From Smithella sp. PtaU1.Bin162 (GTDB lineage Bacteria; Desulfobacterota; Syntrophia; Syntrophales; Smithellaceae), in the NCBI GenBank assembly GCA_002068015.1, contig MVRV01000171.1, positions 1-34,869 of the forward strand: a stretch of 34,869 nt of DNA, read 5' to 3'. A model generated the notes under the pieces. It had not been told where the DNA came from and searched no databases. It saw only the letters and a program-made list of their open reading frames with translations. Positions 22,025-33,235 of the stretch are shown one piece after another. The translations under genes and the position numbers were made by a program. Numbering within the stretch: the first letter of the stretch is position 1; the number at the start of each line of letters is the position of its first letter.

Positions 22025-23314
22025 TTATGAATTTAGTTTATTTTTACTGTCCGGTACTGTTATTTGTTCAAGGATGTCCTGCATAATTTTTGCCGAGGGG
22101 CTTGTCGCATACTGATGGATAAATGCGCGGCCGGAGTCTCCCGCTTTCGCTATGGCCGGGTCCATGGGAATGGCTCCCAGAAAGGGTACTTTCATATCTG
22201 CGGCGATTTTGCGTCCTCCGCCGGAGGGTAAAATCTGAGTTATTTCTCCGCAGTGGGGACAGACAAAGCCGCTCATGTTTTCCACGACACCCAGCACCGG
22301 TACGGAAACCTGACGGCAAAAACTGATGGATTTGCGCACATCCACTGCCGCCACTTTCTGCGGAGTGGTGACGATGACCGCACCGTCGAGCGGCTGGATC
22401 AACTGGCATAAGGAAAGAGGTTCATCCCCGGTTCCGGGGGGCGCGTCTACAATCAGATAGTCGAGATCACCCCATTCCACATCCGTCAGAAATTGTTTGA
22501 TTACGCCCATTTTCATGGGGCCGCGCCAGATTACGGCATCATCCGGGTTTTGTAAAAGAAATCCCAAAGACATGACTTTCATGTTTCCCATTTCCACGGG
22601 GAGCATCCCTTCGGTGCCGCTCCGGAGGGTTTCATTTTCCAGACCCAGCATGGTGGGGATGCTGGGACCATGAATGTCCACATCAAGTAATCCGACACGC
22701 TGATCGGCGAGCATAAGCGCCGTAGCCAGGTTGACGGCGACAGTGCTTTTGCCGACGCCGCCTTTGCCGGAAAGGACTATTATCTTATGTCGGATTCGGC
22801 AGAGTTTTGTCTGCAGCCGGCGCCGGTCGGCAAACTCCTCAGGAGTTTCGCCTTTTCTCTGTTTTGACGCCGAACAGGAAGAATCAGCACATGTTTCACA
22901 TGTTTTTTGCGTATCCGTACCACCCGGTTTTTTCTGCTGCGTCAGGTAATCATTACAGGCCGCGTTCAGGGTGTTGGCTGCGAGAAGCGCACAGTGCTCG
23001 TGATCTTCGGGCAGACCTTCGAGTGCTGCGAGGACATCCTTTTGCGTGATGTTTTTTGCTTCTTCCAGAGTTTTCCCTTCAGCCAGGCAGGTGGTCATGC
23101 TGCCGCAGGCCAATGATGGATCACAACCGTCGGTAATAAATGATATTTTCTCTATCCTGCCGGCATGGGCCTGCAGCCAGAACTCCATAGTATCGCCGCA
23201 TGGTCCGGTGATTCTGGCGTGCCCGTTAAATTTTTCGAGGGGTCCCAGGTTATGCGGATCTTTTGCGTGACGGCGAGCGGTCAGATAAAATTTATTAAAA
23301 TCAACTTCTTCCAT
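22025..23314 (-). CDS. IscU/NifU-like domain fused to Mrp/NBP35 Fe-S carrier ATPase
   Basis: Residues 1-125 resemble an IscU/NifU scaffold ('FYLTARRHAKDPHNLGPL', C39, C64 in 'FITDGCDPSLACGSMTT', C108 in 'EHCALLAANTL'). A linker carries C139-x2-C142-x4-C147. From about 175 onward it is an Mrp/NBP35 ATPase with deviant Walker A 'SGKGGVGKST' (182-191), 'DVDIHGPSIPTMLG', 'DAPPGTGDEPLS' and a C-terminal CxxC ('GFVCPHCGE'). Such ATPases carry and transfer Fe-S clusters; the fusion joins scaffold and carrier in one chain. The start overlaps the end of the MinD-ferredoxin gene by 14 bases, and it is followed within 11 bases by the NifX-like gene, so the three are one unit. Confidence 0.9.
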   Translation of the reverse strand: MEEVDFNKFYLTARRHAKDPHNLGPLEKFNGHARITGPCGDTMEFWLQAHAGRIEKISFITDGCDPSLACGSMTTCLAEGKTLEEAKNITQKDVLAALEGLPEDHEHCALLAANTLNAACNDYLTQQKKPGGTDTQKTCETCADSSCSASKQRKGETPEEFADRRRLQTKLCRIRHKIIVLSGKGGVGKSTVAVNLATALMLADQRVGLLDVDIHGPSIPTMLGLENETLRSGTEGMLPVEMGNMKVMSLGFLLQNPDDAVIWRGPMKMGVIKQFLTDVEWGDLDYLIVDAPPGTGDEPLSLCQLIQPLDGAVIVTTPQKVAAVDVRKSISFCRQVSVPVLGVVENMSGFVCPHCGEITQILPSGGGRKIAADMKVPFLGAIPMDPAIAKAGDSGRAFIHQYATSPSAKIMQDILEQITVPDSKNKLNS

Positions 23315-24203
23315 TTACGTTACTTTCCTCCTGTAAATTAATATTTTTCCAAATTTGCTTGATGTCGCAAGCGCATTCTGATTCAATTTCCACAACCGCT
23401 TTTTGCAGGATCTGGGCCTGTGTGACGCTTCGGTCATAGCGGATACGTCCGGCAATGCGCGCTCCGGCGAGTATTGCGTTCTCTTCAATGCTTTTTGCCA
23501 TGTCCGGATTGATGTCCCATTTATTGATGCAGACAGCGGTTGGAATTTGAAAGTGGCGTGTCAGCGACAGAACCCTTTCCAGATCGTGCCTTCCTGAAAC
23601 AGTGGGTTCAGTTACAACCAGCACCAGTGATGCTCCGGTAACCGAAGCAATTACCGGACATCCTATTCCGGGAGGGCCGTCCACGAGAATGGTGGAGATA
23701 TTTTTTTCTTCGGCGATCCGGCGCGCTTCCCGCCGCACGGTGGAAACCAGCTTGCCGGAATTTTCAGCGGCGGCGCCTAAACGTGCATGCACCATCGGGC
23801 CAAAACGCGTATCCGCGATAAACCATTCGCCGCAAAATCTTTCCGGAAATTCAATGGCGACCGCAGGGCAGAATCTTACGCATACTCCGCATCCTTCACA
23901 GGAAAGGGGATCGATGGAAAACAGGAAATCACCTTTACCGACAGGCTGTCTGCGAACTGCGCCAAAACGGCAATAATCATAACAAAGGCCGCATCCGCTG
24001 CAGTTATCCCGGATAATTAAAGCCTCATGTCCACTGTAAAATTTATGTCTTTCCCTGATATGGGGCGTGAGTACCAGGTGCAGATCGGCGGCATCCACAT
24101 CACAGTCGCAGATTACCGGATGATCGGCCAGTGCGGCGAGTGATGCCGTCACACTGGTTTTACCCGTTCCTCCCTTACCGCTGATGATGACGATTTCTTT
24201 CAT
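23301..24203 (-). CDS. MinD-superfamily ATPase with inserted 2[4Fe-4S] ferredoxin domain
   Basis: The 300-residue protein starts with deviant Walker A 'SGKGGTGKTS', 'CDCDVDAADLHL', and then a ferredoxin insertion of two CxxCxxC type motifs ('CSGCGLCYDYC' and 'CEGCGVCVRFCP'). 'LVDGPPGIGCPVIASVTGASLVLVVTEPT' follows, typical of MinD-type P-loop ATPases. Orthologous pairs (DVU2103/DVU2104) belong to the orange protein complex of Desulfovibrio. The role is probably ATP-dependent cluster or cofactor insertion. It pairs with a paralogue at 26200. The 118 bp upstream hold a short inverted repeat but no clear promoter. Confidence 0.88.
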   Translation of the reverse strand: MKEIVIISGKGGTGKTSVTASLAALADHPVICDCDVDAADLHLVLTPHIRERHKFYSGHEALIIRDNCSGCGLCYDYCRFGAVRRQPVGKGDFLFSIDPLSCEGCGVCVRFCPAVAIEFPERFCGEWFIADTRFGPMVHARLGAAAENSGKLVSTVRREARRIAEEKNISTILVDGPPGIGCPVIASVTGASLVLVVTEPTVSGRHDLERVLSLTRHFQIPTAVCINKWDINPDMAKSIEENAILAGARIAGRIRYDRSVTQAQILQKAVVEIESECACDIKQIWKNINLQEESNVNGRS

Positions 24204-24217
24204 AATAAAACCTTTTC

Positions 24218-24236
24218 AAAAACAGATACTGTTTTT
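24218..24236 (-). terminator. AT-rich inverted repeat upstream of the MinD gene
   Basis: AAAAACAG (24218-24225) and CTGTTTTT (24229-24236) form a perfect 8-bp stem with a 3-base loop, between phosphatidylserine decarboxylase and the next MinD gene. It could be a terminator for the upstream transcript or an operator. It lies only 15 bases before the MinD start codon. Confidence 0.35.
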
Positions 24237-24321
24237 TGGCTGGTGTTGTCTAACATTAAAATGCGCCGGTCAACAAACAAATTCCGTTTAGTCCTTATGT
24301 TTCTTCTGTTAAAAATTAAAA

Positions 24322-24966
24322 TTATTTCAACACCGCGATAACACTTTTTGCACCCTTTACGGTGTTCCCCACTTTCACCCTGATCTCTGAATCTTCCGGC
24401 AGGAAAATATCAACCCGCGAGCCGAAACAGATCAGCCCGTAAAACTGTCCTTTTTTAACCGTATCTCCCGGTTGAATGTAACAAAGAATCCTTCGGGCAA
24501 TAATGCCGGCAATTTGCTTGACGAGTATTTTCGTGGTTCCGCTCATGATTAGTAACGCCGTTTGTTCATTTTCCAGCGAGGCTTTGGGAAGTGCCGCGAT
24601 ATGAAACTTACCCGGATTATATTTTACCAGTTCCACCGTTCCGGCGATCGGTGTACGGTTGACGTGTACGTTGAAAATTGAAAGAAAAATACTGATCCGC
24701 CAGACGGATTGATCAAGATAATCTGTTTCATTGATTTTGGCGATATCCACAATTCTGCCGTCGGCCGGTGATACTACGAGCTTGTTGCCCGGAGCGGCAA
24801 CGCGCCGGGGATTGCGGAAAAAGAACAGAACAAACAAGATAAAAATTAAAGTTGTCCCTCCCGCAATGATCCATTGCTGTGAAAAAAACACGGCTGTTAA
24901 AACGGCCAGAGGAATAATCAACTTTAATCCCTCAAAGGCTACAGGCATTCTTGTTTTATCTATCAT
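24322..24966 (-). CDS. psd: Phosphatidylserine decarboxylase proenzyme (short form)
   Basis: The 214-residue protein has N-terminal hydrophobic segments (about residues 14-50), 'FFRNPRR', 'VVSPADGRIVD' (65-74), 'FNVHVNRTPIAG' (98-109) and the self-cleavage site 'CFGSRVDIF', where Gly182-Ser183 splits to form the pyruvoyl group on Ser183. This is the short bacterial/archaeal form. It makes phosphatidylethanolamine from phosphatidylserine at the inner membrane. It follows the radical SAM gene by 15 bp, so it may be cotranscribed. No phosphatidylserine synthase gene is present in the window. Confidence 0.93.
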   Translation of the reverse strand: MIDKTRMPVAFEGLKLIIPLAVLTAVFFSQQWIIAGGTTLIFILFVLFFFRNPRRVAAPGNKLVVSPADGRIVDIAKINETDYLDQSVWRISIFLSIFNVHVNRTPIAGTVELVKYNPGKFHIAALPKASLENEQTALLIMSGTTKILVKQIAGIIARRILCYIQPGDTVKKGQFYGLICFGSRVDIFLPEDSEIRVKVGNTVKGAKSVIAVLK

Positions 24967-24981
24967 AAATCAAAACTTTTA

Positions 24982-25938
24982 TTATAACCGGCCTTTCTCT
25001 GATATTTTATAGAAAATGTCATGATTGATATATGAAGTCATGATCCGTTTTTCGTCGATAAGCGTCTTTAGCTTTTTTACCGTCTCCTGCGAATGCAGGC
25101 CCAACCCCGAGCAGATTCCGGCCAGCGTGCAGGGGCGCCGTGCCAGCAGATTGATAATATCCGCACCGGCTGCGCTTTGGAATGAATATTCTCGTGTAGA
25201 TTCGGATTTGTCGTCGCTGATAACGTCGACTTTTCCCGGAAACAGCAAGGCCAGGTTATCCATTTGCCGTCTGGATACAGCGCAGGCGAATTCTTCTGCC
25301 GTCGGCCTGCAGACTGTATTGAGCTCTACCCGATCCGGATCTATTTGTCGGGCGCAGGCGGCTATTTTTTTCGCTTCCACAGTAATGCCGGTTACGCCGG
25401 AAAGCAGAAACACTTCCAGCCGGACCTCGCCTGAAAAGGATCGGGTGAATTCGGTAATGCCGTTGACCATTTCTGCAAAGCTGATATCAGGATGCGGCCG
25501 GTTGATATAATGAAACAGCTGTTCATCTCCGGCATCGAGTGACGGAATAACCAGATCCGCGCAGCTTAGCTCCTGCCGGACTTCCGGCATAAAAAGCAAC
25601 GAGCCGTTCGTCAGGCAAGCTACCGGAATGTTTGTGATTTGCTTAATTCCGGCGATAAGTTCACCGATTCCGGCATGCAGTGTCGGTTCACCGGAGCCGG
25701 CGATACTGATATAGTCGGGAGAACTACCCGCCTCCAGTGCTTCTTTCAGTTCATCCAGGATATTTCCAACAGGTACGTAGTGTGCACGCTTAACCGTTTT
25801 TTCGGTTGTACGTCCCAGTTGGCAGTAGATGCAATCGTAGGTGCAGGTTTTAAAAGGCACCAGATCAAGACCGAGAGACCTTCCCAGACGCCGCGATGGA
25901 ACCGGGCCGTAAAGATATTTGTAACGCTTTGTACTCAT
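24982..25938 (-). CDS. Radical SAM protein with C-terminal winged-helix-like region
   Basis: The [4Fe-4S] SAM motif is 'KTCTYDCIYCQLGRTT' (C-x3-C-x2-C), preceded by 'LYGPVPSRRLGRSLGLDLVPF', typical of the COG0731-like group. 'SIAGSGEPTLHAGI' is the GGE-like SAM-binding motif. The last ~70 residues ('INLLARRPCTLAGICSGLGLHSQETVKKLKTLIDEKRI') resemble a winged helix. The frame is open to 26028, but ATG 25938 starts at the family motif, lies two bases after the TGA of the FmdB gene, and has GGAAG nearby. The substrate is unknown; members of this group are often beside NifX/MinD genes in anaerobes. Confidence 0.83.
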   Translation of the reverse strand: MSTKRYKYLYGPVPSRRLGRSLGLDLVPFKTCTYDCIYCQLGRTTEKTVKRAHYVPVGNILDELKEALEAGSSPDYISIAGSGEPTLHAGIGELIAGIKQITNIPVACLTNGSLLFMPEVRQELSCADLVIPSLDAGDEQLFHYINRPHPDISFAEMVNGITEFTRSFSGEVRLEVFLLSGVTGITVEAKKIAACARQIDPDRVELNTVCRPTAEEFACAVSRRQMDNLALLFPGKVDVISDDKSESTREYSFQSAAGADIINLLARRPCTLAGICSGLGLHSQETVKKLKTLIDEKRIMTSYINHDIFYKISEKGRL

Positions 25939-25939
25939 G

Positions 25940-26197
25940 TCAGCTTCCGCAATGCGGCTCACTGCAACGGCTTGTTGCGCCGCAGCAGGTTCTGCCGGTT
26001 TCTTCGAGAGAACAGCTTTTTCCGGCATTACGGTTTGTTGCGCCCGGCGATTTCAGAATAAAACCGCTGCCGCCGCTTACGATTCTGCGGACATTTCCAC
26101 CACAGGCCGGGCATTTTTCCAGCGCCTCGTCCTTGATGCTTTGTTGTTGTTCAAAACGATGATTGCATTGATCGCATTCATATTCATAGGTCGGCAT
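25940..26197 (-). CDS. FmdB-family zinc-ribbon protein
   Basis: The 85-residue protein begins 'MPTYEYECDQCNHRFEQQQSI' with C-x2-C, then 'CPACGGNVRRIVSGGSGF', the FmdB/CxxC_CxxC_SSSS type ribbon. A second Cys-rich tail ('SCSLEETGRTCCGATSRCSEPHCGS') follows and is longer than usual. FmdB-type proteins are small regulators or metal-binding adaptors linked to formamidase and other operons. A GGAGA precedes ATG 26197. It starts two bases after the MinD gene stop and ends one base before the radical SAM start codon. Confidence 0.85.
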   Translation of the reverse strand: MPTYEYECDQCNHRFEQQQSIKDEALEKCPACGGNVRRIVSGGSGFILKSPGATNRNAGKSCSLEETGRTCCGATSRCSEPHCGS

Positions 26198-26199
26198 AT

Positions 26200-27048
26200 T
26201 TAAAATCTCCCTGTTTTTTCAAATTTCTTGATTTTTAAAATAAGACTTTGAAACAAAGTCCGATATTCCGGCAACGCCTCCACCATCAGAATACCCCGTG
26301 AGTAGGCCTCGGCGATCCTGCGGTCGTCGGGTATCTCCAGCAGGATGGGAATATTTTCCCCGGCGCAAAATCTGTGGACACGGTCATCCCCGCTGCCCAT
26401 CCGGTTCACTATGACACCGCAGGGCACTTGCAGTTCTCTTACCATATCAACGGCGAGCATGAGATCATGAAGACCGAAAGGCGTCGGTTCCGTGACGAGT
26501 AAAACAATATCGGAATCCCGGATGGCGGCCATAACCGGACAGGATGTTCCGGGAGGCGCGTCTAAAATAGCCGAGACGGTTTTCGGCAACCGGTTTTTAA
26601 CTGCACGGATCAGCGGCGGCGCCATAGCCACACCTACTAATAACTTTCCGGAAATAAGAGTTATGTTATTCTGCTTCGATGTCTCTATAACGCCGATGGG
26701 ACGGTTCGTTTCCGTAATTGCCTCAGTGGGACAAACAAGAGTGCAACCGCCGCAACCGTGGCACATTTCCGGAAAGACAAGGGGAGTTGTCCCGAATGTG
26801 ACTATGGCCGAATATTCGCAAATGCGTCCGCATTCACCGCAGGAATTGCAGCGGGCTTCATCTACGCGCGGCACGGGAATCGATATGCTTTCTTCCGAGT
26901 GTCCGTCCGTATTTAAAAAGAGATGGGCGTTCGGTTCTTCCACGTCACAATCAGCAAGGATTATGTCGGAGTCATATAGTCGCGCCATGTTTACACTGAC
27001 GGTTGTTTTACCTGTTCCTCCCTTGCCGGAAGCTACGGAAATTCTCAT
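26200..27048 (-). CDS. MinD-superfamily ATPase with ferredoxin domain (paralogue)
   Basis: The 282-residue protein begins 'MRISVASGKGGTGKTTV' with deviant Walker A, then 'ADCDVEEPNAHLFL', followed by a ferredoxin insertion ('CNSCGECGRICEY' and 'CHGCGGCTLVCPTEAI') and 'LDAPPGTSCPVMAAIRDSDIVLLVTEPTPFGLHDL'. It is a paralogue of the protein at 23301 and the two probably act together, as in the Desulfovibrio ORP complex. It is four bases from the membrane-protein gene and three from the FmdB gene, so all are one unit. The ferredoxin could couple ATP use to an Fe-S cluster redox state. Confidence 0.9.
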   Translation of the reverse strand: MRISVASGKGGTGKTTVSVNMARLYDSDIILADCDVEEPNAHLFLNTDGHSEESISIPVPRVDEARCNSCGECGRICEYSAIVTFGTTPLVFPEMCHGCGGCTLVCPTEAITETNRPIGVIETSKQNNITLISGKLLVGVAMAPPLIRAVKNRLPKTVSAILDAPPGTSCPVMAAIRDSDIVLLVTEPTPFGLHDLMLAVDMVRELQVPCGVIVNRMGSGDDRVHRFCAGENIPILLEIPDDRRIAEAYSRGILMVEALPEYRTLFQSLILKIKKFEKTGRF

Positions 27049-27695
27049 AAGACGGTTCCTTTATTATCGATGGTTATGGTGTTTTCGAGAGGCAGACTTG
27101 TCTTTTTAATAAAAAGCAGAGGGAAAACAATGTCGCTGGTACAGCAGGGAATCCATACCGCCAGAAATAGAAATAAGGATATTATAAGAATCTGTACGAT
27201 ATTGATTTGTGTCCCCAATGCCGTGACGATATGAAAGAGTGAAGCCCATGTGCTCAAAAGAACATGCCCCGCATGAGGAATTTTTGTATGAGGCAGGAAA
27301 TAACCCAATATTATACCGATTATAGCCAATGGATTCACCAGCCACCATTTTTCAATAAAGCCCAGGTGTAAACCACGATTGGGTAAATCAAGCAGCCACT
27401 CTCCCATAAAAGGGATAACCGAGTCGCTGATAGTGGCAATTCCTACTGATCCGATATATCCGATTACTATCGTGCGAAAAGGATCATTACTTGAATAAAG
27501 CCTGTACATGGCTGTAGTGACTAATGCGCTCAAAAGCACATGCAGAGGGTGCGTAACCCAGAATAATGTAAATGAAACATCCCTGGATATATGAGAGTAC
27601 ATGAAAACCGTCAGAATGATAACTCCCGTTACGGTGCCAAAAGCCGTAAAGGGGACATGCTTTCTAAGCTCGGTCGTAATTACAGTCACGTTCAT
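27045..27695 (-). CDS. Multi-spanning membrane protein of unknown function
   Basis: The protein starting at ATG 27695 has about 216 residues and six hydrophobic segments. Marks are 'VTHPLHVLLSALVTTAMYRLY', 'DSVIPFMGEWLLDL', 'HLGFIEKWWLVNPLAIIGIILGYFLPHTKIPHAGHVLLSTWASLFHI' and a striking 'IPCCTSDIVFPLLF' near the C-terminus. His residues recur near the ends of helices, and the CC-SD motif could bind metal. The start shares one base with the stop of the DUF89 gene (TAATG), so the longer frame to 27905 is a shadow of that gene. I do not recognise the family. Its place between MinD and DUF89 genes makes metal or sulfur transport possible. Confidence 0.65.
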   Translation of the reverse strand: MNVTVITTELRKHVPFTAFGTVTGVIILTVFMYSHISRDVSFTLFWVTHPLHVLLSALVTTAMYRLYSSNDPFRTIVIGYIGSVGIATISDSVIPFMGEWLLDLPNRGLHLGFIEKWWLVNPLAIIGIILGYFLPHTKIPHAGHVLLSTWASLFHIVTALGTQINIVQILIISLFLFLAVWIPCCTSDIVFPLLFIKKTSLPLENTITIDNKGTVL

Positions 27696-28570
27696 TAATT
27701 GCAGGAGATATCCTTTCTGGTAAAATGATTGGCCGCTACATAGGTTCCAAGATCGAATCCCGAATTGCTGCTGATAACCGGGCACTTGGTCCGGAAAAGG
27801 AAAAAAATATTTCCGGATTTTTCGGTTAAACTTTCGAAATTGCCCTGCCCTTTGGCAATGACTACGTCCGCCTCGCCAAAACGGCGGCGGAATTCGCTGC
27901 TGCAATCGTCCAGAATTGTTCCCGGCGCATCCGACCCGTTATCTATGATTTCCGCGACAGCACCAATATCTGCCGCCTGCGCGTCGGAGCGAGTCGCATC
28001 ATTAATGACCGGATTGCCGCGTACGGCCAGAGTAATTTTTGCGTCGGAAAGCCTCTCTATGAGCAGACGGTCGAAAAATATTTCTCCGGCGTTGTCAGTC
28101 AGGTATAAAATTGTCTTTGCCTGTTTGATTGCTTTTTTGAAAGCTTCCATATCGCCGAAGATAGGCTGCTGCGGCGCGCTTTGCAATTCCGCGTAAATTT
28201 CTCCGAACCCAATGCTGTTTTTAGCGCCCAGGTCGATGATGTTGCCTGTTATGGCATAACGAACCGCCATAGTCAGGGGATCCGGCGAGGCTTCAATCCG
28301 CCGCCGGATGGAAGGGGTCAACGATGCGGCGAGCGCGTTGTGCATATTCTTGGCGGCACGATAGGGATCATCAGTCGGCAGGATTCCGCGCAGCCGTCGA
28401 TGAATTATTTGTGCAATGGCGGGCGGTGATTGATCCAGATCAACTTCGCCGATCCATTGCAAAAAATTGTTTATTAAGCGCATTCTGTCATTTTCCGATT
28501 TGGCCGCCATTTTAAGCGTGTCTGTAGCCTGACGGATAAAACAGGGGATACAATCCAGGGATGTTTTCAT
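27695..28570 (-). CDS. DUF89 (ARMT1-like) damage-control phosphatase family protein
   Basis: The ~291-residue protein begins 'MKTSLDCIPCFIRQATDTLKMA' with the N-terminal C-x2-C of subfamily I. The metal-binding core is 'YLTDNAGEIFFDRLLIERL', with 'AVRGNPVINDATRSDA' and 'VIAKGQGNFESLTE' at the C-terminal side. DUF89 enzymes are metal-dependent phosphatases that remove damaged phosphometabolites. I chose ATG 28570, which overlaps the TrmO stop (ATGA, 28567-28570); TTG 28579 is an alternative. It is one of several unexpected passengers in the ORP-like cluster. Confidence 0.86.
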   Translation of the reverse strand: MKTSLDCIPCFIRQATDTLKMAAKSENDRMRLINNFLQWIGEVDLDQSPPAIAQIIHRRLRGILPTDDPYRAAKNMHNALAASLTPSIRRRIEASPDPLTMAVRYAITGNIIDLGAKNSIGFGEIYAELQSAPQQPIFGDMEAFKKAIKQAKTILYLTDNAGEIFFDRLLIERLSDAKITLAVRGNPVINDATRSDAQAADIGAVAEIIDNGSDAPGTILDDCSSEFRRRFGEADVVIAKGQGNFESLTEKSGNIFFLFRTKCPVISSNSGFDLGTYVAANHFTRKDISCN

Positions 28571-29061
28571 AATCTGCAATACCCTCGCTTTCCCCGCTTT
28601 TGGGCGGTTTGTTCGTCTATTTGATCCTGCCAGCCGCTGTTTTTTACATTACAAGAATCAAACTTGGCCGTATAAGGTTTGATATCCAGAAGCGGTGTGC
28701 CGTCCAGGACATCTATGCCGTCCACATGCAGAATGTTTCTTTCCACTTTTTTCAACTCAACTACACTCAAACCTACGGGGTTCGGACGAAATGGTGCGCG
28801 AGTCGAAAAAATTCCGCGATCAATATCCTGCAAGAAAGGTTTAACGATTAGTTTGCACTGTGGTGATTGATGAAAGTGATAAATAAGGTAGATGTGTGAA
28901 AATCCCTCCAGGTCTTTTAATCCTTCCGTAAAATCCGGAAACACTTCGGCATATCCCTTACAGCCTTCGGCATAGACGGGCTGGATCGGAGTCTTTTCAG
29001 CTACGGTATGTTCGCTGTGAATGATGCCTATTGGCCGATAGATGATTTCCGACGGTTTCAT
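28567..29061 (-). CDS. trmO: TrmO (TsaA-type) tRNA methyltransferase
   Basis: The 164-residue protein shows the TsaA/TrmO beta-barrel: 'YRPIGIIHSEH', 'GFSHIYLIYHFHQS', 'GIFSTRAPFRPNPVGLSVVEL' and 'LLDIKPYTAKFDS'. TrmO N6-methylates t6A37 in tRNA with SAM; some relatives are standalone with other substrates. It is coupled to both neighbours: ATGA overlaps at 28567-28570 and 29058-29061. The short basic tail 'TAQKRGKRGYCRL' extends past the usual end. Confidence 0.88.
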   Translation of the reverse strand: MKPSEIIYRPIGIIHSEHTVAEKTPIQPVYAEGCKGYAEVFPDFTEGLKDLEGFSHIYLIYHFHQSPQCKLIVKPFLQDIDRGIFSTRAPFRPNPVGLSVVELKKVERNILHVDGIDVLDGTPLLDIKPYTAKFDSCNVKNSGWQDQIDEQTAQKRGKRGYCRL

Positions 29062-29420
29062 GCCCAGTGTCCCTCAACATCGGCCGATACAGCTTCGGAC
29101 AGTTTGCCTGTTCGGTAAAGGTCCAGCGCTTCCGCTACGGTTCCCGCGGATGTGTTGTAAATTTTAATGCCTGCCGCCACAAGCACCCGAAAGGCTTTGG
29201 GGCCGCAATGTCCGGTGACGAGAGCTTTTACGCCCAATCGGGCGATGTTTTGTGCGGATTGAATACCCGCGCCCTGGGCTGCATTCAGGTTTTGATTGTT
29301 ATCCTCGACATCAAAAGTGTTGGTTTCCAGATCGTAGATTAAAAATTGCGGAGCCCGGCCGAAACGGCTGTCCAGCGGTGCATTCAGGTCTTTACCGGAA
29401 GTTGTAAATGCTATTTTCAT
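29058..29420 (-). CDS. NifX/NifB-family metal-cluster-binding protein
   Basis: The 120-residue protein reads 'MKIAFTTSGKDLNAPLDSRFGRAPQFLIYDLETN', the classic COG1433 start, then 'GIQSAQNIARLGVKALVTGHCGPKAFRVLVAAGIKIY' and an acidic end with 'EGHWA'. I chose ATG 29420, with AAAGGAAC just upstream; the in-frame ATG 29468 adds 16 charged residues without family support. The fold binds Mo-Fe-S-type cofactors in relatives. It is the second of three paralogues in this locus. Confidence 0.87.
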   Translation of the reverse strand: MKIAFTTSGKDLNAPLDSRFGRAPQFLIYDLETNTFDVEDNNQNLNAAQGAGIQSAQNIARLGVKALVTGHCGPKAFRVLVAAGIKIYNTSAGTVAEALDLYRTGKLSEAVSADVEGHWA

Positions 29421-29481
29421 ATGTTCCTTTCTTTTTTTTTCATTGCCTTCGTTTTCAGCGAGTGTCATTGATTTAAATTGG

Positions 29482-29520
29482 TGGTGGCGGCGCGAAGCGG
29501 TGAAAATTGCGTCGCCACCA
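29482..29520 (-). repeat. Inverted repeat between DUF5320 and NifX genes
   Basis: TGGTGGCG (29482-29489) and CGCCACCA (29513-29520) form a perfect 8-bp stem with a 23-base loop in the 150 bp between the two genes. No T-run follows on the - strand, so an attenuator, mRNA-processing site or binding dyad is as likely as a terminator. Confidence 0.4.
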
Positions 29521-29570
29521 TCCGGACATGAACGGAATCCATGCCTATGTTTAATTCCCGGCTGATTATC

Positions 29571-29900
29571 TCAGTCCTTTGTTGTTAATTCATCGAGACG
29601 CTTTTTAATTGCGTCTATTTCCGCCTGCAGGTATTCAGCCTGCTTCTGCAAAGCGATTTTTTCCGTTTCCGGCGTCGCCGGTTGTGCATTGTAGCCGCCG
29701 AACCATGCTTTCCCCGGCACGCCGGTGGCGTAGAAACGATTACGCCTTCCGAATCCGTCGCCCCGCCGGAACCCCCTGCCATAAAATTGTCCCGGTGCAT
29801 TATTTTGATATCCGGGTACATTAAAACCTGCGCAGAATCCTGCCGCTCTTCCGGTCATAGGCCCCATTCCCATGGGACCAGTTCCATTTCCTCGTGGCAT
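29571..29900 (-). CDS. DUF5320-family small protein
   Basis: The 109-residue protein starts 'MPRGNGTGPMGMGPMTGRAAGFCAG', the hallmark of DUF5320, then a Gly/Arg/Phe-rich stretch ('GRGFRRGDGFGRRNRFYATG') and a C-terminal coiled-coil of about 40 residues ('EKIALQKQAEYLQAEIDAIKKRLDEL'). These proteins occur beside NifX and MinD genes in anaerobes; the role is unknown. AGGAGG lies nine bases before ATG 29900; the frame is open to 30032 but that part overlaps the neighbouring gene. Confidence 0.86.
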   Translation of the reverse strand: MPRGNGTGPMGMGPMTGRAAGFCAGFNVPGYQNNAPGQFYGRGFRRGDGFGRRNRFYATGVPGKAWFGGYNAQPATPETEKIALQKQAEYLQAEIDAIKKRLDELTTKD

Positions 29901-29935
29901 AACAAATACCTCCTTTAATAACAAATATAGTTCTT

Positions 29936-30136
29936 TTACTCCCTGATCAACATCGTTGCGCATTGGGGACATTTTATTGTCGTACAGGGAACTCCTTGTT
30001 TGTGAGTTTGCCGATGACCGCACTGGGGGCATATACAGTTGCCGCCGATACCGCCGGTTTTATTTCCACCCATACGCCCCCGTCCCCCGCCTCGGCCCAT
30101 GCCCATTCCTCTGCCGCCCTGATTTGCCGAATTCAT
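29936..30136 (-). CDS. Small Gly/Met-rich zinc-ribbon protein
   Basis: The 66-residue protein has a low-complexity N-terminus ('GGRGMGMGRGGGRGRMGGNKTGGIGG') and a C-terminal Cys4 ribbon, C-x2-C ... C-x6-C-x2-C: 'CICPQCGHRQTHKQGVPCTTIKCPQCATML'. It is a metal-binding small protein, commonly found with DUF5320. GAAGGAGGG is positioned before ATG 30136; the longer frame to 30223 lies inside the decarboxylase gene. Confidence 0.75.
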   Translation of the reverse strand: MNSANQGGRGMGMGRGGGRGRMGGNKTGGIGGNCICPQCGHRQTHKQGVPCTTIKCPQCATMLIRE

Positions 30137-30162
30137 ATTTTTCCCTCCTTCGTTACACGCTT

Positions 30163-30711
30163 TCAGAAAACAAAAACCGCCGCCGCCAGTACCGTTGTAT
30201 ATCCTTTCGTTTTCAAAACACATGATTGCGTCGTATTACGGGTGCCGACGATTTTTCCGCTGATCTTAAATAGCTCTTTCTTTTCATCCCAGCTTTCATC
30301 AACATTGAAATCGATACCCAGAGTGGAAGCGAGCATTGCCGCCGCCAGATCTTCCGCATAATCGCCGGTTTGCCGTTCGGTGCAGCCGAAAGCATGGTGT
30401 TCACTGATGTAGCCGTAAGTTTTTTTATCCACCGGTATGGCGCAGCCGACAGCCGCCGAAATCAGCCGCCGTGGTTCATTACTGCAGCAGCGGCTCATAA
30501 CGCAGAAGGTAATTGCCCCCGGCTTCAACTTTTTGAGGCCTTCGGATCGCGATATTACCCGGCAACCCGGAGGCAGAATGCTCGATACCTGCACCAGATT
30601 ACATTTTTCAATACCGGCATCGCGCAGTGCCAGTTCAAATGAGTGCAGTTGTTCCGTGTGGGTACCGCAGCCTTTGGTGAAGAACAGCTCTTTAGGGATG
30701 GACTGATTCAA
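30163..30711 (-). CDS. Pyruvoyl-dependent arginine decarboxylase (PvlArgDC)
   Basis: The 182-residue protein has the PvlArgDC self-cleavage site 'NLVQVSSILPPGC', where Ser43-Ser44 splits to give a pyruvoyl N-terminus. It also has 'ELFFTKGCGTHTEQLHSFELAL' and 'YGYISEHHAFGC' with the catalytic Glu104. These enzymes convert arginine to agmatine, the first step to polyamines. I chose TTG 30711, with AAAGGAG upstream; the frame to 30861 overlaps the NifX-like gene and is not credible. Its presence in a Mo/Fe-S cofactor cluster is unusual, and its activity there could be altered. Confidence 0.9.
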   Translation of the reverse strand: MNQSIPKELFFTKGCGTHTEQLHSFELALRDAGIEKCNLVQVSSILPPGCRVISRSEGLKKLKPGAITFCVMSRCCSNEPRRLISAAVGCAIPVDKKTYGYISEHHAFGCTERQTGDYAEDLAAAMLASTLGIDFNVDESWDEKKELFKISGKIVGTRNTTQSCVLKTKGYTTVLAAAVFVF

Positions 30712-30772: not shown

Positions 30773-31165
30773 TTACGGCCTGCCGCAGCGTCTTCTGTGG
30801 TTGGACTGACGGTTGCCGGCAAATCCATGTTTGCGGCAACCGGGCAGAGCAAAAACCGCATGATTAATCAGTCCTTTTTGATAGGCGCTGATGACATCAT
30901 CCACCGGTCCGCGGACAAAGGGATAAATCTCGATGCCTGCTGATTTGATTGCCGACTGAAACTGCCGGGAAATGGCGCCGCAAATCAATATATTGACTTT
31001 CTGATCCATAAGTTGCAGCACGCGGCCTAATATGTCGGGCGTATTGAACTTAATCAATGTCCTTTTTTGTTTTTTTGCCTCGTCTATTTCCACAATCAGT
31101 AAGTTATCCGCGGCATCGAAAACGGTAGACATGTAGTCCTTCCACACAGACAGCGCTACTTTCAT
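30773..31165 (-). CDS. Divergent NifX/NifB-family protein, first gene of the sigma-54 unit
   Basis: The 130-residue protein begins 'MKVALSVWKDYMSTVFDAADNLLIVEIDE' and contains 'VNILICGAISRQFQSAIKSAGIEIYPFVRGPVDDVISAY', the COG1433 fold. It is the most divergent of the three paralogues and has a basic, Cys-bearing tail ('GCRKHGFAGNRQSNHRRRCGRP'). It lies directly downstream of the sigma-54-type promoter at 31221-31236. ATG 31165 has an AAGAAGA-type ribosome-binding site. Confidence 0.8.
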   Translation of the reverse strand: MKVALSVWKDYMSTVFDAADNLLIVEIDEAKKQKRTLIKFNTPDILGRVLQLMDQKVNILICGAISRQFQSAIKSAGIEIYPFVRGPVDDVISAYQKGLINHAVFALPGCRKHGFAGNRQSNHRRRCGRP

Positions 31166-31220
31166 AAGATCTTCTTTCTTTAATTATTTTGTGAACAAAT
31201 ACTATCTGGATAAGCACTTC

Positions 31221-31236
31221 TGCAAATTGAATGCCA
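31221..31236 (-). promoter_or_regulatory. Sigma-54 (-24/-12) promoter of the ORP-like unit
   Basis: On the - strand the sequence is TGGCATTCAATTTGCA: TGGCA-T and TTGCA with the five-base spacer of the consensus TGGCAC-N5-TTGCW. The GG and GC doublets are at the required distance, and only one base of the core differs. Transcription would start near 31209, about 45 bases before ATG 31165. Confidence 0.78.
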
Positions 31237-31315
31237 AACCTGGAAGATACGATGATACGTTAATAATAACGGCGTGTTGTGATAATAGCAGTAAATTACA
31301 AAAATTATTATTGGT

Positions 31316-31360
31316 GCAATAATGCGACAATAATTGCCGTTTAGTTGCAATAATGCGACC
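31316..31360 (-). promoter_or_regulatory. Tandem 14-bp repeats, putative enhancer (UAS) of the sigma-54 activator
   Basis: TGCAATAATGCGAC occurs twice, at 31316-31329 and 31347-31360, start-to-start 31 bp apart, close to three helical turns. The repeats sit 80-125 bp upstream of the -24/-12 promoter and just after the activator gene, the usual arrangement for enhancer sites of bacterial enhancer-binding proteins. A further AT-rich half-match (ATAATTGC) lies between them. Confidence 0.65.
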
Positions 31361-31365
31361 TTTGC

Positions 31366-32745
31366 TTATAACGGCGGTTCAATGCCCAGAGACTTGATTT
31401 TGCGGTAAAGAGTGCTTTTATGAATGCCCAGTTGCCGGGCTGTTTGCGGCCGGTTCCAGTTGTTTTGTTTGAGAATATCAAGCAGGTAGCTGGATTGAAC
31501 ATCCCGTAAGGAATTGGAATGGCTGTCGGTGCGGACGGTGTTTCCCGGAAGCAACGCTTCGGGCAGATGTTTCTTTTCAATGAAATCCGTTTTGCAGAGA
31601 ATAAAGGCGCGTTCAATAATGTTCGCCAGCTCCCGAATGTTGCCCGGATAAGAATGTGTCATCAGAATGGACATGGCTTCGCTGCTTATGCCGGAGATAG
31701 ATTTTTTCTGAATGGCGTTGAAACGGGTGATGAAATGTTCAATCAGCAGGGGAATATCTTCCATGCGCTCGCGCAACGGAGGAAGATTGATTTTGAAAAC
31801 GTTAATCCGGTAGAAAAGATCTTCCCGGAAACGGCCCTGCCGAACGAGGTCTTCCAGATTTTTATTGGTGGCTGCAATAATCCGCACATTATGCTCGACA
31901 CTTTCCGTTGATCCCAGCGGCTCATAGGTTTTTTCCTGCAGGACACGCAAAAGTTTGACCTGCATGGAGGAGGGAATATCTCCGATCTCATCTAAAAAAA
32001 TAGTACCGTTTTCGGCCATTTTAAAGCGGCCCGGTTTATCTTTTTTTGCGTCGGTAAAGGCACCGGCCTTATAACCGAAGAGTTCCGATTCCAGAAGCGT
32101 ATCCGGCAGGGCACCGCAGTTTACGGCGACAAAAGGCTGTTTTTTTCTGGGGCTCAAGTTGTGAATTGCCCGTGCGACCATTTCTTTTCCCGTTCCGCTT
32201 TCCCCTTCAATGAGGATTGTGCTGGCGCTTGCCGCGATGTCGGGAAGAATATCAAATAAGCGGATCATTTTGTGATTTTTGGAAATGATGTCCGCAAAAG
32301 AGTATTTTGCCTTGATGGCTTTGCGCAGATCCTCCTCGATGCTGATGTCGCGAAAGGTTTCCACAGCTCCCAGGAGAACACCTTTGTTGTTTTGCAGCAA
32401 AGCAGTGGAAATGCTGATAGTTCGTCTTCGTCCATCGGCATTGATTATATAAACCTTTTTATCGACAATCGGCTCGCCGGTTTTCATGGTTTCCCGAAGA
32501 CAGCAGCTTTTTTCGCAGATATCCGCCTTCAGGACGTCTTTGCACAGCTGGCCTACGGCTTCCTCCCGGGCAACGCCGGTTATTTTTTCCGCGGCGCGGT
32601 TGAATGAGGTGATCCGCCAGTCGGCATCCACAGTAAAAACACCGTCGGCAATGGAATCCAAAATTATTTCCTGCTGTTCTCCGGCGGAAAAAGGGAGAAG
32701 TTTTTTTTGTTGACGAGATTTCATGGCCCGGCCTTGTTTAAACAT
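31366..32745 (-). CDS. PAS-type sigma-54 enhancer-binding regulator
   Basis: The 459-residue protein has an N-terminal PAS domain (about residues 22-140) with clustered cysteines C68, C77, C81 and C82 ('LCKDVLKADICEKSCC'). An AAA+ domain follows with Walker A GESGTGKE (181-188) and Walker B 'IFLDEIGD', then a Fis-type HTH ('RPQTARQLGIHKSTLYRKIKSLG') at the end. The sigma-54-contact loop reads GAFTDA (228-233) rather than GAFTGA, a variant I know from other functional activators. It probably senses redox or a cluster through the cysteines and drives the -24/-12 promoter next door, like DVU2106 of the Desulfovibrio ORP locus. ATG 32724 (with AAGG upstream) is an alternative start. Confidence 0.88.
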   Translation of the reverse strand: MFKQGRAMKSRQQKKLLPFSAGEQQEIILDSIADGVFTVDADWRITSFNRAAEKITGVAREEAVGQLCKDVLKADICEKSCCLRETMKTGEPIVDKKVYIINADGRRRTISISTALLQNNKGVLLGAVETFRDISIEEDLRKAIKAKYSFADIISKNHKMIRLFDILPDIAASASTILIEGESGTGKEMVARAIHNLSPRKKQPFVAVNCGALPDTLLESELFGYKAGAFTDAKKDKPGRFKMAENGTIFLDEIGDIPSSMQVKLLRVLQEKTYEPLGSTESVEHNVRIIAATNKNLEDLVRQGRFREDLFYRINVFKINLPPLRERMEDIPLLIEHFITRFNAIQKKSISGISSEAMSILMTHSYPGNIRELANIIERAFILCKTDFIEKKHLPEALLPGNTVRTDSHSNSLRDVQSSYLLDILKQNNWNRPQTARQLGIHKSTLYRKIKSLGIEPPL

Positions 32746-32926
32746 GATTATCGACTGCCTGCTAAATTACCCTAGTTTTTTTCTACAGGCAAGAGAAACA
32801 AACAGCAAGGTAATAAAAGATTCCATAATTATTATTGCTGCCGCGAATATTTTATTATGATTCTTCGTATTAATTGAGGGAATAAATTTATGCAGGCCGG
32901 AAATAATATTTCATAATTTCGATCTT

Positions 32927-33235
32927 TTATGTGTCATCATTATTGTGCTGCTTATTTCTGCGGTATATTTCTTTAACTATTTCAAGCTGTGTCATGCCCG
33001 TGGTGTCGATCTTCAACCTTGCCACTTCATCATCCAGAAAATAGGCACTTTCCGATATAAGGGGATAGGCTGATTCGAAGGAATCAAAATAGTTGAGATC
33101 GTTTTTAGTCTCTGCACATGCCTCCTGCAATTCAGATTTGACTGCAGAATATCCTTTTTGGGCTTCCGTTAACACGCTCATTGCGTTTTTAAAGAAATAA
33201 TCGTGGAAAAAACTTCGGCGGGACATGTCAGCCAT
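32927..33235 (-). CDS. Hypothetical 102-residue protein
   Basis: The helical protein has an acidic/charged composition with 'RRSFFHDYFFKNAMSVLTEAQKGYSAVKSELQEAC' and 'FDSFESAYPLISESAYFLDDEVARLKIDTTGMTQLEIVKEIY'. I do not recognise a characterised family. ATG 33235 has a well-placed GAGGT and overlaps the stop of the TM-encoding frame before it by eight bases. The 191 bp between it and the activator gene show no promoter I can name. Confidence 0.6.
   Translation of the reverse strand: MADMSRRSFFHDYFFKNAMSVLTEAQKGYSAVKSELQEACAETKNDLNYFDSFESAYPLISESAYFLDDEVARLKIDTTGMTQLEIVKEIYRRNKQHNNDDT

Follow-up and report, generated by a model that had tools for sequence, protein, structure and literature searches.

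The region between the gene for a PAS/AAA+/Fis activator and the gene for an ORP/NifX-type protein in Smithella sp. PtaU1.Bin162 very probably places an ORP-type operon under sigma-54-dependent control, with the PAS activator, as judged from the sequence, driving transcription through two dyads. The layout of this region, its conservation, the co-occurrence of its sites with the activator, an unlinked second target and the covariation between the dyads and the activator's HTH were each established computationally. ORP-type operons are widespread in anaerobes, yet little is understood of what they do or of the signal that induces them; an activator together with its operator, its promoter and a second target provides a specific regulon that can be tested in syntrophic bacteria, along with a route to this signal.

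Layout of the control region and the downstream genes

Within the window (i.e., the whole stretch of 34,869 nucleotides analyzed here), the control region has the activator gene on one side and the ORP/NifX-type gene on the other, and all elements are located on the minus strand (Table 1). The probable remainder of the operon encodes a pyruvoyl arginine decarboxylase, a small Gly-rich protein, a DUF5320 protein, a second Nitro_FeMo-Co protein, TrmO, an ARMT1-like protein, a membrane protein, a ferredoxin-MinD ATPase, a zinc ribbon protein, a radical SAM protein, a PS decarboxylase, a second ferredoxin-MinD ATPase and a NifU-Mrp fusion. The pyruvoyl-dependent arginine decarboxylase, found here within an ORP-type operon, occupies positions 30163-30711 and has a probable TTG start at 30711. 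The fusion protein (22025-23314) joins a NifU-like N-terminal domain (NifU_N) to an Mrp/NBP35 ATPase and differs in this from MrpORP.

Table 1. Features of the control region and of the genes on either side of it (positions in the window)
Feature	Position	Strand	Remarks
PAS/AAA+/Fis activator gene	32745..31366	minus	sigma-54 enhancer-binding protein, 459 aa
Distal dyad GTCGCATTATTGCAAC	31359-31344	minus	12/12 vs GTYGCANNNNTGCRAC; center ~-142 relative to predicted start; candidate enhancer
Possible third half-site GGCAATT between dyads	31332..31338	minus	predicted role
Proximal dyad GTCGCATTATTGCACC	31328-31313	minus	11/12 vs GTYGCANNNNTGCRAC; center ~-111 relative to predicted start; candidate enhancer
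Spacer, 76 bp	31237..31312	minus	AT-rich (71%), unconserved
Sigma-54 promoter TGGCATTCAATTTGCA (-24/-12)	31236-31221	minus	predicted from sequence and conserved distance in relatives
Predicted transcription start	~31209/31210	minus	placed from the -12 position
5' leader with AAGAAG ribosome-binding sequence	31166..31210	minus	predicted from sequence
First gene downstream, 130-aa ORP/NifX-type protein	31165..30773	minus	Nitro_FeMo-Co, PF02579
Probable rest of operon	22025..30711	minus	extent predicted from gene orientation only

Two palindromic sites upstream of the promoter

The first-pass annotation had described two exact repeats, 31 bp apart, upstream of the promoter and after the activator gene, and this description was borne out. 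Exact copies of TGCAATAATGCGAC occur at 31315-31328 and 31346-31359; the window holds no other exact direct repeat of a 14-mer within 100 bp, and second-order Markov shuffles (n = 100) contained none. The annotation had also presented the repeats as tandem 14-bp units. While the copies are indeed exact, the recognized unit does not appear to be a 14-bp direct repeat, as each copy represents most of a 16-bp imperfect dyad, i.e., GTCGCATTATTGCAAC and GTCGCATTATTGCACC (consensus GTYGCA-N4-TGCRAC). These dyads become apparent when the 14-mers are extended by two bases, so that the direct repeat corresponds to two palindromes with identical orientation. Counted from the first base of the -24 element, the dyads lie 77-123 bp upstream, and the distal dyad starts 6 bp past the stop codon of the activator gene.

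The predicted sigma-54 promoter

As had been claimed, TGGCATTCAATTTGCA shows correct sigma-54 spacing, with GG and GC doublets 10 nt apart that match the spacing of the -24/-12 consensus, and it deviates from TGGCAC-N5-TTGCW at a single position (C to T in TGGCAC). It is also the sole match to TGGCAY-N5-TTGCW in the 34.9-kb window (0.14 expected). The genome carries one copy of the sigma-54 gene (rpoN). When two mismatches were allowed, sigma-54-like sites in the window were not found above chance frequency (8 observed vs 16 expected); the promoter call is thus based on position and conservation, as the consensus alone is insufficient.

The chance frequency of these degenerate sites would also be compatible with a fortuitous -24/-12 match, in which case the operon would be transcribed from a sigma-70 promoter or by read-through from the activator gene, which is co-directional and has no clear terminator. 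We consider this extremely unlikely, however, given that the window contains the exact motif only once, that the element shows near-maximal information at a fixed distance across 22 loci, that the second target on contig C187 repeats the arrangement (both below), and that no minus-strand sigma-70-like sites were found in 30900-33000.

Conservation across Syntrophales

In the region past the activator stop codon, the 30 orthologous loci contained 27 dyads matching at least 11 of 12 positions (0.1 expected) and 17 sigma-54 sites matching at least 11 of 12 positions (0.2 expected); a few of the orthologous loci had no clear dyads where these would be expected. An information profile of 22 Syntrophales loci, aligned by anchoring on the dyads, showed near-maximal information at the dyad cores, TGGCA and TTGC, and near-zero information over most of the spacer. 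The two dyads were exactly 31 bp apart in 16 of these 22 loci (range 29-32 bp), with the promoter starting 87-93 bp from the first base of the second dyad; in more distant families of the order, dyad spacing was mostly 32-34 bp. Between the dyads, positions 22-24 of the pair carried 1.05-1.86 bits, and relatives often have TGCRAC or TCGCG there, which may represent a third half-site.

All elements are kept in UBA2262, the nearest named relative (94.8% DNA identity over 1.86 kb), and in most related loci the control region is followed by a gene of the ORP/NifX type. In three genomes (G001, G029 and G049), the dyad pair precedes an ORP gene approx. 1-2 kb from the activator gene, not adjacent to it.

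The description of the control region as "complete" in the first-pass annotation was too strong, since no convincing IHF site was found in the spacers. Only 4 of 22 spacers reached 8 matches (1.9 expected), and the best matches barely exceeded those in shuffled sequences; the IHF-like matches across the 22 spacers showed weak positional clustering approx. 40 bp upstream of the promoter.

The activator and its co-occurrence with the dyads

By Pfam, the activator consists of PAS, Sigma54_activat and HTH_8 domains, with a Fis-type HTH that carries TARQLGIHKSTLYRKIKSL; the features of a bacterial enhancer-binding protein of the NtrC class (i.e., AAA+ domain, GAFTGA-type loop and C-terminal Fis HTH) are thus present. 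The loop of the AAA+ domain reads GAFTDA in all 30 activator orthologues from the family and order. Three PAS cysteines (Cys68, Cys77 and Cys81) are invariant in 30/30 orthologues and Cys82 is present in 22 (window positions 32490-32550); these conserved cysteines suggest that the domain may sense a metal, Fe-S or thiols.

When used as a sequence model (E <= 1e-3), the double dyad matched 16 of the 18 family genomes with an activator orthologue and none of the 17 genomes without one (Fisher's test, ~4e-8, calculated by hand); these data are partly non-independent, as the model was trained on 11 loci that it found again and as sites adjacent to the activator gene vanish with that gene.

A probable unlinked target and further dyad pairs

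The first-pass annotation had suggested a search of the genome for further copies of the repeat, and this search yielded a second, unlinked copy on contig C187 (G000:C187:2127-2262), where two dyads 31 bp apart are found together with a perfect -24/-12 element, TGGCACTTCTTTTGCA (locus L080). This copy lies upstream of a Tat-signal metallo-beta-lactamase-fold gene (assigned by Pfam matches just below the curated cut-offs), which is probably an unlinked regulon member, such that the activator would control at least one further gene. In G006, this same metallo-beta-lactamase-fold gene (86% identity) is located directly behind the activator gene and its control region, and homologues at 46-49% identity (L210 and L211) had no such control region. 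In relatives, dyad pairs that are likewise unlinked are found ahead of a ferredoxin gene (G023) and of DUF5320 genes (G030 and G015). With the exception of C187, single dyads found elsewhere in the genome when one mismatch was allowed lack a partner dyad or a promoter and were dismissed as chance occurrences; the total number of single dyads at one mismatch equals that of a reversed-pattern control (14 vs 14).

The location of these pairs also bears on whether the dyads could be RNA hairpins (e.g., terminators of the activator gene) instead of protein-binding DNA sites. Each dyad could fold into a hairpin (6-bp stem, 4-nt loop), one of them lies 6 bp past the activator stop codon, and a terminator-like match was found at 31344-31359. 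This match is on the plus strand, though, and no minus-strand terminators were called. Moreover, the two dyads stay 31 bp apart and at a fixed distance from the sigma-54 promoter, and pairs that do not adjoin an activator gene are found at G000:C187, G023:C19, G030:C6 and G015:C119, as well as at 1-2 kb from one in G001 and G029. Based on the spacing and the unlinked copies, we rejected the hairpin explanation, which appears exceedingly improbable as compared to binding of a protein to the dyads.

Core length and the recognition helix

At 65 activator loci across phyla, core length was recorded for strictly defined dyads (GCA...TGC core) that follow the activator gene; shuffled regions yielded almost no such dyads. 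An N4 core was found for all sites beside helices of the IHK type (23/23) and the IHP type (5/5), and an N3 core for all sites beside INP/INA helices (5/5) and for two additional loci, L159 and L168, in which the helix reads DINPSTLFRK. Loci with IHR-type helices were divided (one with N3, L204, vs two with N4), and L186 showed an N3 core beside a helix that the script did not classify. Core length thus largely appears to track the recognition helix of the activator, a rule that is strong but not absolute and that was drawn from loci that are not phylogenetically independent. This covariation is evidence, independent of the window, that links the adjacent activator with the dyads, and it provides a simple rule to predict sites of this activator family elsewhere.

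With approx. 40 sigma-54 activators encoded in the genome, the dyads could be bound not by the adjacent PAS protein but by another enhancer-binding protein or Fis-type regulator, and in some relatives a paralogue (53-57% identical) adjoins a similar dyad pair. The nearest other activator in the genome, however, is only 41% identical to the one in the window, genomes of the family tend to have the site and the orthologue together, and core length follows the helix type of the adjacent protein, all of which makes binding by another regulator very unlikely. Conservation, co-occurrence, the second copy and the helix covariation therefore support what the first-pass annotation had predicted from the sequence, i.e., that the adjacent activator is the probable controlling factor and the upstream repeats its probable sites.

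At a number of planctomycete and other distant loci (L155, L159, L167, L168 and L170), the activator-ORP arrangement is kept, with N3 dyads and an INP/INA helix. We tentatively propose, as a reading that is plausible but somewhat short of probable, that a regulator family extending across Desulfobacterota as well as Planctomycetes and Calditrichaeota acts through paired dyads on ORP-type operons, that core length and helix changed together in this family, and that three PAS cysteines perceive a redox or sulfur signal.

Proposed mechanism and comparison with known systems

We propose that the PAS activator would bind as dimers to the two GTYGCA-N4-TGCRAC dyads, which lie three turns apart and would face the same side of the helix. 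Upon receipt of a signal by the PAS domain, the activator would assemble and loop over the ~76-bp AT-rich spacer, and its GAFTDA AAA+ motor would open sigma-54 RNA polymerase at the -24/-12 element, giving transcription from ~31209. The signal may be read by the conserved PAS cysteines and might, speculatively, be related to redox state, sulfur or Fe-S, as suggested by these cysteines together with the Fe-S-related targets.

At the enterobacterial glnAp2 promoter, which is of the -24/-12 type, the NtrC sites are two upstream dyads centered near -108 and -140, approx. three helical turns apart. The Smithella region is similar in having a dyad pair with this spacing upstream of such a promoter; site sequence and regulon differ, and NtrC carries a phosphorylated receiver domain whereas the Smithella activator carries a PAS sensor.

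In Desulfovibrio vulgaris Hildenborough, DVU2106, which also has the GAFTDA loop variant, activates two divergent orp operons (orp1-orp2) through palindromic sites, with sigma-54 and IHF (PMC3897727, PMC4641369); these sites are located ~90-130 bp upstream of the sigma-54-driven start (PMC3897727). Both systems have a one-component GAFTDA activator beside ORP-type and ferredoxin-MinD genes, as well as palindromic sites upstream of a sigma-54 promoter, a likeness judged by position. On the other hand, the two D. vulgaris operons are divergent and flank the activator gene, whereas the single Smithella operon is co-directional with, and behind, the activator gene. IHF sites are present between enhancer and promoter in D. 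vulgaris, while no significant site was found in the Smithella spacer. MrpORP of D. vulgaris combines Mrp with a C-terminal dinitrogenase-type domain, as compared to the NifU-Mrp fusion in Smithella, and an unlinked metallo-beta-lactamase-fold target is found in the Smithella system, unlike in the DVU2106/orp system. A scan of named genomes with the first gene (ORP/NifX-type) did not return D. vulgaris. As the organization differs (one co-directional operon, NifU-Mrp, IHF unsupported), we classified the Smithella locus apart from the Desulfovibrio orp system; control of an ORP-type operon by sigma-54 and an activator, distinct from the orp system itself and likened to it by shared features, is well supported.

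At three loci (L119, L120 and L121; G021:C30, G013:C1 and G009:C48), the activator paralogue adjoins a further dyad pair as well as a further ORP-DUF5320 cluster.
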